DNA of 64,000 nucleotides from Klebsiella sp. BIGb0138. Lineage in GTDB: Bacteria > Pseudomonadota > Gammaproteobacteria > Enterobacterales > Enterobacteriaceae. Below are positions 3,371 to 53,593 of the stretch, piece after piece. The number at the start of each line of letters is the position of its first letter. Position 1 is the first letter of the stretch. The DNA is taken from contig NZ_SMCV01000017.1 in assembly GCF_004342285.1 (NCBI RefSeq), positions 1 through 64,000 of the forward strand. The letters are read 5' to 3'. The notes under the pieces were generated by a model. The model did no database searches, was not told where the DNA came from, and worked only from the letters and a program-made list of their open reading frames with translations. The translations under genes were made by a program, and so were the position numbers.

Positions 3371-4270
3371 CTACTTTTCATTCCGCCGCATGATTTCCGT
3401 CAGCTGGGCGTCTTTCTCTTCCCATAACGTATTTAGCCAACGCTGAAAGCGGCGCTTAAAGTTTTTGTCGTTCACGTAGTCGCCATGCAGATCGTCAGCG
3501 ACGGGGAGCATATTGACGCGTACTACGATACGGGTCAGGCGGCCGCTTAGCATGTCGAAAAACGGTCTCTGATTGTTCTCCGGGTAGCATAATGTCACGT
3601 TCAGCAGCTTATCAAACTGGGCGCCAAGGACGTTTAACGCCATTGCGATACCTGCCGCTTTCGGCGGTAATAAATTACGGTAAGGCGAACGGGTCTGGCG
3701 CTGCTTCTCTTCCGTAAAGCGCGAACCTTCGACGAAGTTGACGATAGTGGTCGGGTGCGAACGGAATTTTTCGCAGGAACGACGGGTGGTTTCAACGTCT
3801 TTACCGCGACGCTCCGGGTGGCGAATTAAATAGCCACGCGAGTAGCGGCGCATGAAGGGCATATCCAGCGCCCAGCAGGCCAGACCGATAAAGGGCACCC
3901 AGGCGAGCTGCTGCTTGAGAAAGTATTTATTCATCGGGATGTGCTTACGGAACAACACGCAAAGCACCACGATATCTGCCCAGCTATGATGGTTGCTGAT
4001 AAGCAGATACCAGTTTTTTTTATTTAAGCCATCAAGGCCCTGCACGTCCCATTTCAGCCCGGGGTTCAGGTAAAGCAGTATCGCCAATCCCTCACACCAG
4101 CAGTACATCATGAAATTGCAGAAACGGGATATCGCACGCCATACCGCAGGAATGGGTACAAGAAGTTTAATCAGCCCGGCGAAGATTATCGGTACGGAAC
4201 AGATAATGGTGACTACGATGGTAAGGGCGATACTCAGCGGAAGTGTTATCGCAGCGAGTAATCTCGACAT
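3371..4270 (-). CDS. yihG: Inner membrane acyltransferase YihG
   Basis: This 299-residue protein belongs to the PlsC/LPLAT acyltransferase family; in E. coli YihG is a minor lysophosphatidate acyltransferase. A hydrophobic N-terminal segment (about residues 8-35) anchors it in the inner membrane. The catalytic HX4D motif appears as NHHSWAD, and the acceptor-binding motif as FVEGSRFT. It is monocistronic and converges on dsbA. The ATG start matches the N-terminus expected for the family. Confidence 0.93.
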
Positions 4271-48025: not shown

Positions 48026-48922
48026 ATGGATCAATCTTATGGGCGGCTGGTCAGTCGTGCGGCCATTGCGGCGACGGTGATGGCCTCCGCGTTACTTTTG
48101 ATTAAAATTTTTGCGTGGTGGTATACCGGATCGGTGAGTATTCTGGCGGCGCTTGTGGACTCGCTGGTGGATATTGCCGCCTCGTTAACCAACCTGCTGG
48201 TGGTGCGTTACTCGCTTCAACCCGCTGATGAGGAACATACTTTTGGCCACGGCAAGGCGGAATCGCTGGCCGCGCTGGCGCAAAGTATGTTTATCTCCGG
48301 GTCGGCTCTGTTCCTGTTTTTGACCGGCATCCAGCATCTGGCGCGGCCGGAGCCGATGCAGGCGGCGGGCATCGGCATGATTGTGACCCTGATTGCGCTG
48401 GCCAGCACGCTGGTGCTGGTGACTTTCCAACGCTGGGTGGTGAGAAAAACGCGAAGCCAGGCGGTGCGAGCAGATATGCTTCATTATCAGTCTGATGTTA
48501 TGATGAACGGCGCAATTCTGGTGGCGCTGGGCCTCTCCTGGTATGGTTGGCATCGCGCCGACGCGCTGTTTGCCCTTGGAATTGGCATCTATATTTTATA
48601 TAGCGCGCTGCGTATGGGTTACGACGCCGTTCAGTCGTTGTTAGACCGCGCACTTCCTGATGAGGAGCGTCAGGACATTATCAATATCGTGACCGCGTGG
48701 CCAGGCGTCAGCGGGGCGCACGATCTACGGACGCGGCAGTCAGGGCCGACTCGCTTTATTCAAATACATCTGGAAATGGAAGATAACCTCCCGCTGGTGC
48801 AGGCGCACGTGATTGCCGACCAGGTGGAGCAGGCGATTCTGCACCGTTTCCCGGGTTCTGATGTGATTATCCATCAGGATCCCTGTTCTGTGGTGCCGCT
48901 GGCGCGACAGGGCGTTTTTTGA
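48026..48922 (+). CDS. fieF: Ferrous iron and zinc efflux protein FieF (YiiP)
   Basis: FieF is a cation diffusion facilitator, a proton-driven exporter of Fe(II) and Zn(II). The 298-residue protein has six helices, the transport site residues in LVDSLVDI and [10 protein letters not shown], and a cytoplasmic domain with further metal ligands (HLEMED, IIHQDPC). The ATG at 48026 follows AAAAGGAG; an open frame upstream overlaps CpxQ and is not coding. Confidence 0.96.
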
Positions 48923-49124: not shown

Positions 49125-50087
49125 ATGATTAAGAAAATCGGTGTATTGACAAGTGGCGGTGATGCGCCGGGCATGAACGCAGCAATTCGTGGCGTTGTGC
49201 GCGCAGCATTAACGGAAGGTCTGGAAGTTTTTGGAATCTATGACGGTTACCTCGGCCTGTATGAAGATCGCATGGTTCAGCTCGACCGCTATAGCGTTTC
49301 CGATATGATCAACCGTGGCGGCACCTTCCTGGGCTCAGCGCGCTTCCCGGAATTCCGCGAAGAGCACATTCGCGCCGTGGCGCTTGAGAACATGAAAAAG
49401 CGCGGCCTGGATGCGCTGGTTGTTATCGGCGGCGACGGTTCCTACATGGGGGCGATGCGTCTGACCGAAATGGGCTTCCCGTGCATCGGCCTGCCCGGCA
49501 CCATCGATAACGACATTAAGGGCACCGACTACACCATCGGTTTCTTCACCGCTCTGAGCACCGTTGTTGAGGCCATTGACCGCCTGCGCGATACCTCCTC
49601 TTCCCACCAGCGTATTTCTGTGGTGGAAGTGATGGGCCGTTACTGCGGCGACCTGACCCTGGCCGCGGCGATTGCCGGCGGTTGTGAGTTCATCATGGTG
49701 CCGGAAGTGGAATACTCGCGTGACGATCTGGTCGCCGAAATCAAAGCGGGCATCGCCAAAGGTAAGAAACACGCCATCGTGGCGATTACCGAACACATGT
49801 GCGATGTGGACGAGCTGGCGCACTACATTGAGAAAGAGACCGGCCGCGAAACCCGCGCGACCGTTCTGGGCCACATTCAGCGCGGAGGTTCTCCGGTTCC
49901 TTATGACCGTATCCTGGCGTCCCGCATGGGTTCCTACGCGATTGAACTGCTGCAGCAGGGCTTTGGCGGCCGCTGTGTCGGTATTCAGAACGAGAAGCTG
50001 GTGCACCATGACATCATCGACGCTATCGAGAACATGAAGCGTCCATTCAAGAATGACTGGCTGGACTGCGCGAAGAAACTGTATTAA
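49125..50087 (+). CDS. pfkA: 6-phosphofructokinase I
   Basis: PfkA commits fructose-6-phosphate to glycolysis using ATP. The 320-residue protein has the ATP site [11 protein letters not shown] and [12 protein letters not shown], and the catalytic [12 protein letters not shown] loop with Asp127. The allosteric regions of the ADP/PEP-controlled enzyme are present. It has its own terminator. In E. coli it is followed by sbp-cdh-tpiA; here rraA follows directly. Confidence 0.98.
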
Positions 50088-50105
50088 TTCTGCCGCAACG
50101 GCAAC

Positions 50106-50137
50106 AAAAAGGCCTTCTCAGAGAGAAGGCCTTTTTT
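50106..50137. terminator. Bidirectional terminator between pfkA and rraA
   Basis: AAAAAGGCCTTCTC-agA-GAGAAGGCCTTTTTT is a near-perfect palindrome with A and T tracts at its ends. It lies between convergent pfkA and rraA. Confidence 0.93.
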
Positions 50138-50147
50138 CATGGGCGGG

Positions 50148-50633
50148 TCATTCGATATCCAGCGCGTCCTCGGAGAGGATAATCCCGGTATTATCGGCAT
50201 ACAGATGGTCGCCGGAGAAGAAGGTCACGCCGCCGAAATTGACGCGTACGTCGCTTTCGCCGATGCCTTCGCCCGCGGCGCCCACCGGGATGGCGGCCAG
50301 CGCCTGGATGCCGATATCCAGATCTTCGAGATCGTCAACCTGACGAACCGCGCCGTAAACCACTATCCCTTCCCACTCATTTTGTACGGCCAGACGCGCC
50401 AGGTCGGCGTCAATCAACGCACGTCGGACGGAACCCCCGCCGTCGATCAGCAAGATGTGACCACGGCCGTTCTGTTCGAGCATATCGTATAGCAACCCGT
50501 TATCCTCGAAACATTTCACCGTGATGATTTGTCCACCAAACGACGACCGTCCGCCAAAATTGGAGAACAGAGGTTCCACTACGTTGACATCTTCCTGGTA
50601 GATGTCACAAAGCTCGGAAGTATCGTATTTCAT
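50148..50633 (-). CDS. rraA: Regulator of ribonuclease E activity A
   Basis: RraA binds RNase E and inhibits its processing of mRNA. The 161-residue protein starts [21 protein letters not shown] and contains the conserved [13 protein letters not shown] segment. It lies 92 bases downstream of menA in the same direction. The E. coli gene zapB, which diverges from it there, is not in this window. Confidence 0.96.
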
Positions 50634-50725: not shown

Positions 50726-51652
50726 TTAACCCACCAGCTTGCTGCAAATAATCCCAATGACAAACAGCAGGTTGGTCAGGAGCGCCGCTTTTACCGTACG
50801 TTCCAGCATTGGACGCATCGCCACGGGAGCGCGTTCACGCAGCACAAATCGCGCCTGCTTCACCAGCAGCGGCATGGCGAGCAGGAACAGCCAACCCCAT
50901 GGGTTATGTAGAGAAATCAGATTAAACAGCGCCAGACACAGCGGAGCGCCGATGAGCAGGCAGCTGTGGTAGCGGCGGGCGTTAAGCGGCCCCAGACGCA
51001 CGGCGAGGGTATTTTTACCGTTCTCCCTGTCGCTATCGATATCGCGCAGATTATTGATATTCAGCACCGCTGCGGCTAACAGACCGCAGGCGGTGGCGGG
51101 CAGGAAAATCGTCGCGGCAATGCTGTGGGCCTGCAGGTACCAGCTTCCGACGACGCTCAGCCAGCCGAAGAACACCAGCACGGAGATATCGCCAAGGCCG
51201 ATATAACCATAGGGGCGAGTGCCGACGGTATAGGTAATGGCGGCGATTATCGATAAGCTCCCCAGCACCATAAAGCCAATAAAATCGGCCATCGTCTGCC
51301 AGGCGCAGAACAGCAGCGCCAGCCCGGAAAGACAAATCAGCACCACGGTGACGATCAGCGCGCGCTTCATCTGCGCCGGGGTGATCGCCCCTTTTTGCAT
51401 CCCGCGCAGCGGGCCGAGACGATCGGGCTTATCGCTGCCCTTAACCGCATCACCGTAATCATTGGCCAGATTGGATAAGATTTGCAGCAGGCCGGCGGTA
51501 ACCAGCGCCAGCAGGGCTACCCAGGGATCGAAGTACCCCTGCTGCCACGCCAGCGCCGTGCCGACAACAATGGCGGAGAAGGCCAGCGGTAACGTTTTTG
51601 GCCGCAGGCTTTCCAGCCAGGCCTGGGTTCGGTTTATCGGTTGTTCAGTCAT
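50726..51652 (-). CDS. menA: 1,4-dihydroxy-2-naphthoate octaprenyltransferase
   Basis: MenA attaches the octaprenyl chain to 1,4-dihydroxy-2-naphthoate in menaquinone synthesis. The 308-residue membrane protein (UbiA family) has about eight to nine helices and the Asp-rich motifs NLANDYGDAVKGSDKPDR and NNLRDIDSDRENGK. The ATG at 51652 gives MTEQPINRTQAWLESLRPKT; an earlier ATG would run through the hslU terminator. Confidence 0.97.
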   Translation of the reverse strand: MTEQPINRTQAWLESLRPKTLPLAFSAIVVGTALAWQQGYFDPWVALLALVTAGLLQILSNLANDYGDAVKGSDKPDRLGPLRGMQKGAITPAQMKRALIVTVVLICLSGLALLFCAWQTMADFIGFMVLGSLSIIAAITYTVGTRPYGYIGLGDISVLVFFGWLSVVGSWYLQAHSIAATIFLPATACGLLAAAVLNINNLRDIDSDRENGKNTLAVRLGPLNARRYHSCLLIGAPLCLALFNLISLHNPWGWLFLLAMPLLVKQARFVLRERAPVAMRPMLERTVKAALLTNLLFVIGIICSKLVG

Positions 51653-51662
51653 AATTCCTGGC

Positions 51663-51689
51663 CAAAAAAATGGGGCTATATAGCCCCAT
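51663..51689 (-). terminator. hslVU terminator
   Basis: ATGGGGCTATATAGCCCCAT is a perfect 20-base palindrome, followed on the minus strand by seven T residues. It lies between hslU and menA. Confidence 0.9.
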
Positions 51690-51718
51690 CGATTGTGATG
51701 AAAATACATTGAACCGGA

Positions 51719-53053
51719 TTATAGGATAAAACGGCTCAGATCTTCATCTGCCACCAGTACATCCAGATGTTTACCGACATACTCAGCATCAATGGTGATG
51801 CTCTGGCCATTCATTTCGCTGGCATCGTAGGAGATGTCTTCAATCAGACGCTCCAGCACGGTGTGCAGACGACGCGCGCCGATGTTTTCGGTGGTTTCGT
51901 TCACCTGCCATGCCGCCTGAGCAATACGCTTGATGCCCTCTTGCGTAAACTCGATGTTAACGCCTTCGGTAGCCATCAGGGCTTTGTACTGGACGGTGAT
52001 AGAGGCGTTCGGCTCGGTCAGGATGCGCTCGAAATCTTCCGTCGTCAGCGCTTTCAGCTCGACGCGAATAGGCAGACGGCCCTGCAGTTCCGGGATCAGA
52101 TCGGACGGACTCGCTACCTGGAACGCGCCGGAGGCGATAAACAGGATGTGGTCGGTTTTCACCATCCCGTGCTTGGTCGACACGGTGCAGCCCTCTACCA
52201 GCGGCAGCAGGTCGCGCTGAACGCCTTCGCGGGATACATCCGGGCCGGAGCTGTTGCCGCCGCGCTTACAGATTTTGTCGATTTCGTCGATAAACACAAT
52301 ACCGTGCTGTTCAACGGCATCGATGGCGTCCTGCTTGAGTTCTTCCGGGTTGACCAGCTTCGCCGCTTCTTCTTCGATCAGCAGCTTCATCGCATCTTTG
52401 ATTTTCAGCTTACGCGGTTTTTGCTTCTGCCCGCCCAGATTCTGGAACATCGACTGCAGCTGGCTGGTCATCTCTTCCATGCCCGGCGGGGACATGATTT
52501 CAACGCCCATCGGCGCAGCGGCGAGATCGATCTCGATCTCTTTATCGTCGAGCTGACCTTCGCGTAGTTTCTTACGGAATGCCTGACGCGCAGCGGACGG
52601 TTCCTGAGTCTGCTCCGCCTGGCCCCAGTTATTTTTTGCCGGTGGGATCAGCACATCCAGAATGCGCTCCTCCGCCAGCTCTTCCGCGCGATAGCGGTTT
52701 TTATCGATGGACTGCATGCGGACCATTTTGATCGCCGCATCGGTCAGATCGCGGATAATAGAATCCACTTCCTTGCCCACATAGCCCACTTCGGTGAATT
52801 TGGTTGCTTCAACTTTGATGAACGGCGCGTTGGCCAGCTTCGCCAGACGGCGAGCGATTTCGGTTTTACCGACGCCGGTCGGGCCGATCATCAGAATGTT
52901 TTTCGGCGTGACTTCATGGCGCAGCTCTTCATTCAGCTGCATACGGCGCCAGCGGTTACGCAGCGCGATGGCGACAGAACGCTTCGCCGCGTCCTGACCG
53001 ATAATATGTTTGTCCAGTTCGCTGACAATTTCGCGTGGGGTCATTTCAGACAT
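51719..53053 (-). CDS. hslU: HslUV protease ATPase subunit
   Basis: HslU is a AAA+ hexamer that unfolds substrates such as SulA and feeds them to HslV. The 444-residue protein has Walker [12 protein letters not shown] (about 57-67), an I domain insertion (about 110-240), Walker B VFIDEID, and the C-terminal ending DEDLSRFIL that contacts HslV. It is 9 bases downstream of hslV. Confidence 0.98.
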
Positions 53054-53062
53054 GGGAGATCC

Positions 53063-53593
53063 TTACGCTTTAGAAGCTAATTCTTCGATGGTGTGGAAAT
53101 GGTTGGTATAGATGCAGATATCGCCTGCAATATTCAACGCTTTCTCTGCGATGTCGCGAGCGCCCATATCGGTATTTTCCAGCAGAGCGCGAGCAGCGGC
53201 CTGGGCGTAGGGACCACCGGAGCCGATAGCAATCAGGTCGTTTTCAGGCTGTACCACATCACCGTTACCAGTAATGATCAGCGACGCATTTTCGTCGGCG
53301 ACGGCCAGCAGGGCTTCCAGCTTGCGCAGCATGCGGTCGGTACGCCAGTCTTTCGCCAGCTCCACGGCGGCTTTGACCAGGTGACCCTGATGCATTTCCA
53401 GTTTACGTTCAAACAGTTCGAACAGCGTGAAGGCGTCGGCAGTACCGCCAGCGAAGCCAGCGATCACTTTGTCGTTATAGAGACGACGGACTTTTTTCAC
53501 GTTACCTTTCATGACGGTGTTGCCCAGCGTGGCCTGGCCATCACCGGCAATAACCACATGGCCGTTACGGCGAACACTAACTATTGTTGTCAC
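53063..53593 (-). CDS. hslV: HslUV protease peptidase subunit
   Basis: HslV is the proteasome-like peptidase of the complex, a double hexamer. The 176-residue protein has the nucleophile Thr right after the initiator Met ([20 protein letters not shown]) and the conserved [11 protein letters not shown]. It is the first gene of a heat-shock operon with a sigma-32 promoter in front. Confidence 0.98.

Follow-up and report, generated by a model that had tools for sequence, protein, structure and literature searches.

The direct junction of pfkA and rraA in Klebsiella sp. BIGb0138 is real, it is ordinary for the genus, and it has an explanation: a gene block has been relocated across the replication origin. 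We consider it probable (roughly 0.7) that pfkA and rraA came together when two overlapping oriC-spanning inversions in a common ancestor carried this block from one replichore to the other. The relocation is clade-wide and of a kind already known, and its anatomy is unusual and well resolved.

The pfkA-rraA junction

The window is the whole stretch of 64,000 nucleotides that was analysed. Its features around the junction are the following:

48026-48922, plus strand: fieF, flanking gene in ancestral order; open reading frame (ORF) shortened by eye so as to start with the ATG at 48026; tblastn match
49125-50087, plus strand: pfkA, last gene ahead of the junction, ancestrally followed by sbp; ORF, comparison with E. 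coli, NCBIfam
50088-50147, no strand: junction left by the departed block; gap coordinates, genus comparison, hairpin conservation
50106-50136, no strand: two-way terminator-like hairpin, perfect 14-bp stem and 3-nt loop; repeat, folding, conservation
50148-50633, minus strand: rraA, first gene past the junction, ancestrally adjoining zapB; ORF, comparison with E. coli, NCBIfam
50726-51709, minus strand: menA, ORF as listed, true start perhaps further inside; tblastn match
51719-53053, minus strand: hslU; ORF, tblastn match
53063-53593, minus strand: hslV; ORF, tblastn match

Since pfkA ends at 50087 and rraA, on the opposite strand, ends at 50148, the gap is exactly 50088-50147 (60 bp). Both genes scored above their NCBIfam equivalog cut-offs, and the junction lies in the interior of an 84,767-base contig (C17). 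The gap contains a single perfect 14-bp inverted repeat (50106-50119/50123-50136), and T-runs end it on both strands. The folding energies of the hairpin were -27.4 and -27.5 kcal/mol (z = -4.46 and -4.83), and none of 200 shuffled sequences folded as low on either strand. A stem of the GCCTTCTC type recurs in the junctions of all 19 further genus members, as well as in those of Yokenella and Trabulsiella. Because a simple terminator scan, with its loop and stem rules, did not list this hairpin, the reading as a terminator rests on the repeat, the folding and the conservation. Coordinates, repeat and folding thus agree with the sequence-only reading, which had described pfkA as joined to rraA across 60 bases with one bidirectional terminator.

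In E. coli B-StaR, the pfkA-rraA interval holds sbp, cdh, tpiA, yiiQ, yiiR, yiiS, uspD, fpr, glpX, glpK, glpF and zapB. These are the 12 genes that the sequence-only reading had named as missing; two of them, yiiS and uspD, may not have belonged to the block that moved.

The block lies across oriC

When the genome itself was searched at the DNA level with the E. coli block as query, counterparts of 10 of the 12 genes were located on another contig (C4:143831-158862), between xanP and recG and across oriC from pfkA-rraA, in circularly permuted order. Between 143 and 162 kb, this contig reads xanP(-), glpK(-), glpF(-), zapB(+), sbp(+), cdh(+), a five-gene cluster, tpiA(-), yiiQ(-), yiiR(+), fpr(-), glpX(-), recG(-), trmH(-) and spoT. 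The former outer ends of the block, zapB and sbp, are now joined, and the block has been opened between glpX and glpK. One simple transposition of the block is ruled out by the permuted order. The oriC region is on the same contig as the block (C4:13779-18181), and pfkA-rraA is on C17.

The counterparts on C4 rule out gene loss for these 10 genes, and they bear out the expectation that tpiA, fpr and glpFKX had been moved rather than lost. This does not extend to yiiS and uspD, which had no DNA match in the genome in the same search. Among 80 named loci these two genes were seen in five Escherichia loci alone, and they therefore need not belong to the moved block.

In the closed genome G007, whose hit coordinates are those of Enterobacter sp. 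JUb54 (the JUb54 genome below), the block lies 158-147 kb to the left of oriC and matches E. coli on the minus strand, with plus-strand flanks; in E. coli B it lies 201-211 kb to the right of oriC. As the block is both reversed and on the other replichore, its orientation to the replication fork is kept.

The relocated region has several local peculiarities. A four-gene cluster (L015:6272-10412, on C4) stands between cdh and an anion-symporter-like gene. It encodes a GPH-family symporter (above the NCBIfam cut-off) and sugar-kinase-like, ADP-ribosyl-hydrolase-like and GntR-like proteins (all three below the cut-offs), and it also occurs in loci of Raoultella terrigena, Klebsiella grimontii and K. 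oxytoca. The anion-symporter-like gene, the fifth of the cluster, is found in most ancestral-order loci too, so only the four genes ahead of it are extra. The gene gltS, usually located between xanP and glpK in derived loci, is missing there in this genome (L015:591-833) and in L048, L057, L091 and L122. The space between glpF and zapB contains a repeat of about 110 bp (L015, about 3607-3716) with many further copies across the genus genomes.

Distribution in the genus and the family

The genus sample represents Klebsiella in the wide sense, as two of its genomes agree in their hit coordinates with Enterobacter sp. JUb54 and Klebsiella pneumoniae ATCC 13883. The pfkA-rraA junction was recovered in one contiguous match in 20/20 genomes, some of them single-contig, and the 19 others were 86-93% identical to ours. 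The zapB-sbp junction was likewise in one piece in all 20, and glpX-recG in 19 of them, with a 0.9-kb gap in the remaining one. The named locus nearest to our own was that of Raoultella ornithinolytica (92%). It had been anticipated that the arrangement would be unexceptional if all close relatives shared it; they do, and it is the rule in the genus and in several neighbouring genera.

At the family level, 295 genomes were searched, and 202 of them (105 genus codes) gave any match; among the matches listed, the junction was contiguous in at least 15 genomes from at least 7 genus codes. The 80 named ZapB loci comprised 49 with the E. coli-like order, 26 with the Klebsiella order, 4 with a third order and 1 that could not be placed. 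The derived order, found in 30 of the 80, is not confined to Klebsiella: it also occurs in Kluyvera, Pseudocitrobacter, Superficieibacter, Yokenella and Trabulsiella. Some records under the names Enterobacter, Citrobacter and Pluralibacter have the derived junction as well. Among the 30 derived named genomes, 29 have pfkA next to rraA, either directly or with no more than 3.3 kb between matched pieces; the exception is Pseudocitrobacter faecalis.

Polarity and tree of the derived order

Outside the family, zapB stands beside rraA in 9 genomes from 5 other families of the order; the genes were apart in 4 genomes there, and in most others only one of the two was seen. The E. coli-like order is the ancestral one, a polarity that is established in part. 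The adjacency in the 5 outside families speaks against the suggestion that pfkA-rraA could be the ancestral arrangement. Of the three origins that had been considered, a lineage-specific translocation is the one that holds, with the block sitting elsewhere in the genome. The sequence-only reading was right about relocation and did not foresee the permutation, the inversion or the carriage across oriC.

We built a tree from seven genes of the block itself (80 rows; row L087 was dropped, and five rows filled less than half of the columns) and counted changes from the group table, leaving the unclassified row L111 uncounted. On the free tree, 27 of the 30 derived rows clustered together. Two rows of Superficieibacter and that of Enterobacter sp. 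BIGb0383 were placed among ancestral rows with weak support, which raises the count from one change to two; the starred branches force only one change between ancestral and derived order. Holding all 30 derived rows together gave a likelihood 3.21 log units better than that of the free tree (AU p = 0.529). A single origin of the derived order is thus not rejected.

Two origin-spanning inversions as the proposed mechanism

To reconstruct the path between the orders, we described the region as eight signed blocks and searched their possible orders breadth-first. Two inversions convert the E. coli-like order into the Klebsiella order along a unique route with one possible intermediate, and both inversions span oriC. 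With inversions that do not span the origin, the Klebsiella order was not reached within the four steps searched. The two successive inversions would have taken place in the common ancestor of Klebsiella/Raoultella, Kluyvera, Pseudocitrobacter, Superficieibacter, Yokenella, Trabulsiella and a few relatives. The first would have had its ends at recG|gltS and glpX|glpK; those of the second would have been zapB|rraA and sbp|pfkA, the latter by then on the far side of the origin. This second step would return the origin region to its former orientation and leave the block on the opposite replichore in inverted and circularly permuted form. The expected end state is recG-[glpX...cdh-sbp]-[zapB-glpF-glpK]-gltS-xanP, with pfkA joined to rraA.

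A segment that lies on the other replichore, inverted and with its fork orientation kept, is what an origin-spanning pair of inversions leaves behind, and this is what we found. The one-step intermediate was absent among the 80 named loci: none combined gltS-glpK with zapB-rraA, and none had recG-glpX with the old neighbours of glpX. The break points are at unequal distances from oriC, namely about -120 versus +200 to +211 kb in E. coli B and -158/-147 versus about +82 kb in the JUb54 genome, and the events are therefore not textbook symmetric inversions. In E. coli B, whose present-day layout was measured, the ends do not have the equidistance from oriC that a strict definition of symmetric inversion asks for.

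All four break points of the main event are in ordinary intergenic spaces, and no mobile elements or rrn operons were noticed at them when our own junctions were read and the junction spaces were compared. This comparison also matched no repeat pair common to the break points. The E. coli-type pfkA-sbp space carries a dispersed repeat (query 1184-1345) with many copies in the genomes G431 and G436, and palindromic runs occur in several glpK-glpX, gltS-glpK and zapB-rraA spaces; these sequences are probably elements of the REP/BIME and ERIC types.

An alternative path, which we regard as rather unlikely, is that the block was excised from between pfkA and rraA as a circle, closing zapB onto sbp, and that the circle was reopened at glpX|glpK and inserted at recG|gltS. 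This would explain the circular permutation naturally, it takes two cut-and-join steps and so no more than the two inversions, and the Klebsiella order is exactly among the 20 circle outcomes that we enumerated. The same-orientation exchange of rrn-bounded segments in the JUb54 genome (see below) also demonstrates block transpositions near this origin. The joining of the old ends and the opening elsewhere fit a circle and two inversions equally and are therefore not decisive. However, the kept fork orientation would be a one-in-two accident for a circle, all relocated segments seen are inverted across the origin, and, as inferred from the search, the exchange in Yokenella and Trabulsiella would need two separate circle events against only two inversions. 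No direct repeat was demonstrated at the excision points, and among the ORFs of 130 amino acids or more in L015, none beside the new block ends was noticed to encode a recombinase.

The arrangement could also have arisen repeatedly, or have passed from one genus to another through homologous transfer of the region. The two changes on the free tree would agree with this, as would the reuse of the glpX|glpK break in Phytobacter massiliensis and in Escherichia sp. MOD1-EC7003 (the latter on a short draft contig), but three new junctions (pfkA-rraA, zapB-sbp and glpX-recG) would have to recur together. The better likelihood of the derived rows held together, which is not rejected, and the single change forced by the starred branches likewise make such a history improbable. 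An assembly error at 50088-50147 has a negligible probability: the genome is a draft of 32 contigs, but the contiguous junction in 20/20 genus genomes makes the assembly deletion that had been considered very unlikely, and the hairpin within the gap is conserved; we reject this option. For the two-inversion explanation, we infer the use of inversions rather than a circle, the single origin and the manner of breakage.

Further rearrangements in relatives

The search also places the order of Yokenella regensburgei and three Trabulsiella genomes. All four have the junctions pfkA-rraA, yijD-sbp, recG-glpX and zapB-trmA, and three have gltS-glpK, glpK being split in the fourth. Here the argE-yijD and selC/yicJ...zapB segments have been exchanged between the replichores; an argE|yicL junction was seen in two of the four genomes and ppc|selC-yicJ in one, the stretches of the others having ended short. 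Exactly two more origin-spanning inversions lead from the Klebsiella order to this one. The E. coli-like order is four inversions away from it, and no shorter route by way of the one-inversion intermediate was found; several routes are equally short, and one of them passes through the Klebsiella order. In Trabulsiella odontotermitis TbOT1.10 (L087), glpK is split over two contigs, and phage-like ORFs on the zapB side make an insertion in glpK likely.

In Pseudocitrobacter faecalis (L206, L207-L208), pfkA adjoins selC-yicJ on one contig, and rraA is followed after 19 kb by yicL on another. This is one standing origin-spanning inversion at the pfkA-rraA junction itself, and it is a later event; in P. 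vendiensis and a Pseudocitrobacter metagenome-assembled genome (MAG), pfkA and rraA are still together. Such later inversions demonstrate that sister genera undergo the process and are not proof that it made the pfkA-rraA junction. Every segment seen changing sides, i.e. the main block, both exchanged segments and the tpiA-glpX segment of Phytobacter massiliensis, is inverted, as inversions require.

Phytobacter massiliensis (L209, L212) is otherwise ancestral in order. Its tpiA-yiiQ-yiiR-fpr-glpX segment lies beside nepI, inverted and across the origin, and at the old place the anion-symporter-like gene is joined to glpK. Compared with E. coli B, the JUb54 genome has two rrn-bounded segments swapped in the same orientation at +21 to +169 kb to the right of oriC, so that the rrnA-rrnB stretch (with pfkA-rraA) now precedes the rrnC-rrnA stretch; this exchange is an event separate from the block move. 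In Escherichia sp. MOD1-EC7003 (L111), glpK-glpF-zapB is apparently inverted in place next to glpX. As this is a short draft contig (6.3 kb), an assembly fault is possible.

Consequences for glpX

The upstream region of sbp travelled with its gene. The gene glpX was separated from the glpFK operon and is now behind recG. The distance from the recG stop to the start of glpX is 40-68 nt in the 19 named loci that include this junction and 53 nt in our genome. All 46 ancestral glpK-glpX spacers contain the motif TGnTAnACT, 31-43 nt ahead of glpX, compared with 0.6% of letter-shuffled spacers; the pattern was defined after inspection of the spacer sequences. Among 24 derived recG-glpX spacers, it is kept in 7, five of them from Kluyvera and two from Pseudocitrobacter. 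The motif is a putative promoter of the extended -10 type, and a regulatory change is predicted for glpX, now split from glpFK and behind the spoT-recG operon.

Tentatively, and with more doubt than confidence, we propose that gene blocks around oriC are exchanged repeatedly in this part of the Enterobacteriaceae, and that paired origin-spanning inversions at a few reused break points (after pfkA, after zapB, at glpX|glpK and beside selC) swap them between the replichores while the rest looks untouched. Many apparent origin-near translocations in bacteria might then be paired inversions, and one such swap may have put glpX (class II fructose-1,6-bisphosphatase) behind spoT-trmH-recG, its own promoter decaying afterwards in most lineages.

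As a character, the 60-bp gap is derived and shared by a group of genera that includes Klebsiella/Raoultella, Kluyvera, Pseudocitrobacter, Superficieibacter, Yokenella and Trabulsiella; it is therefore useful for placing genera whose names conflict with kinship. The region would also offer a worked case of a small origin-near translocation that can be broken down into two origin-spanning inversions, accompanied in sister genera by a single inversion still in place and by another exchange.

Comparison with known rearrangements

A search of the open-access literature found no paper on this arrangement, by which its absence from print is not established. Related rearrangements have been described. 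Origin-spanning 'symmetric' inter-replichore inversions are known from Yersinia, where break points are reported to be reused more often near the origin (PMC2483231), and inter-replichore inversions have been surveyed across 247 species (PMC9584773). Like these, the events proposed here have break points that flank oriC, keep the fork orientation and recur within a lineage. Unlike them, they would form a pair whose net effect is a small block on the other replichore in an apparently unrearranged region, their break points miss equidistance by 80 kb or more, and the result is fixed across several genera instead of varying within a species.

Translocations are enriched near the origin according to another study, which defines them as orientation-keeping and argues that strand symmetry does not explain the enrichment (PMC12863080). 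Our block was likewise relocated near oriC; in contrast to those translocations, it is inverted in map orientation and can be read as the product of two origin-spanning inversions. Finally, host-specific Salmonella serovars are reported to have rrn-mediated rearrangements (PMC2957434). Both cases involve large changes in the origin half of an enterobacterial chromosome, but the breaks of the main event described here are not at rrn operons, and it is the exchange in Enterobacter sp. JUb54 that is of the Salmonella kind.
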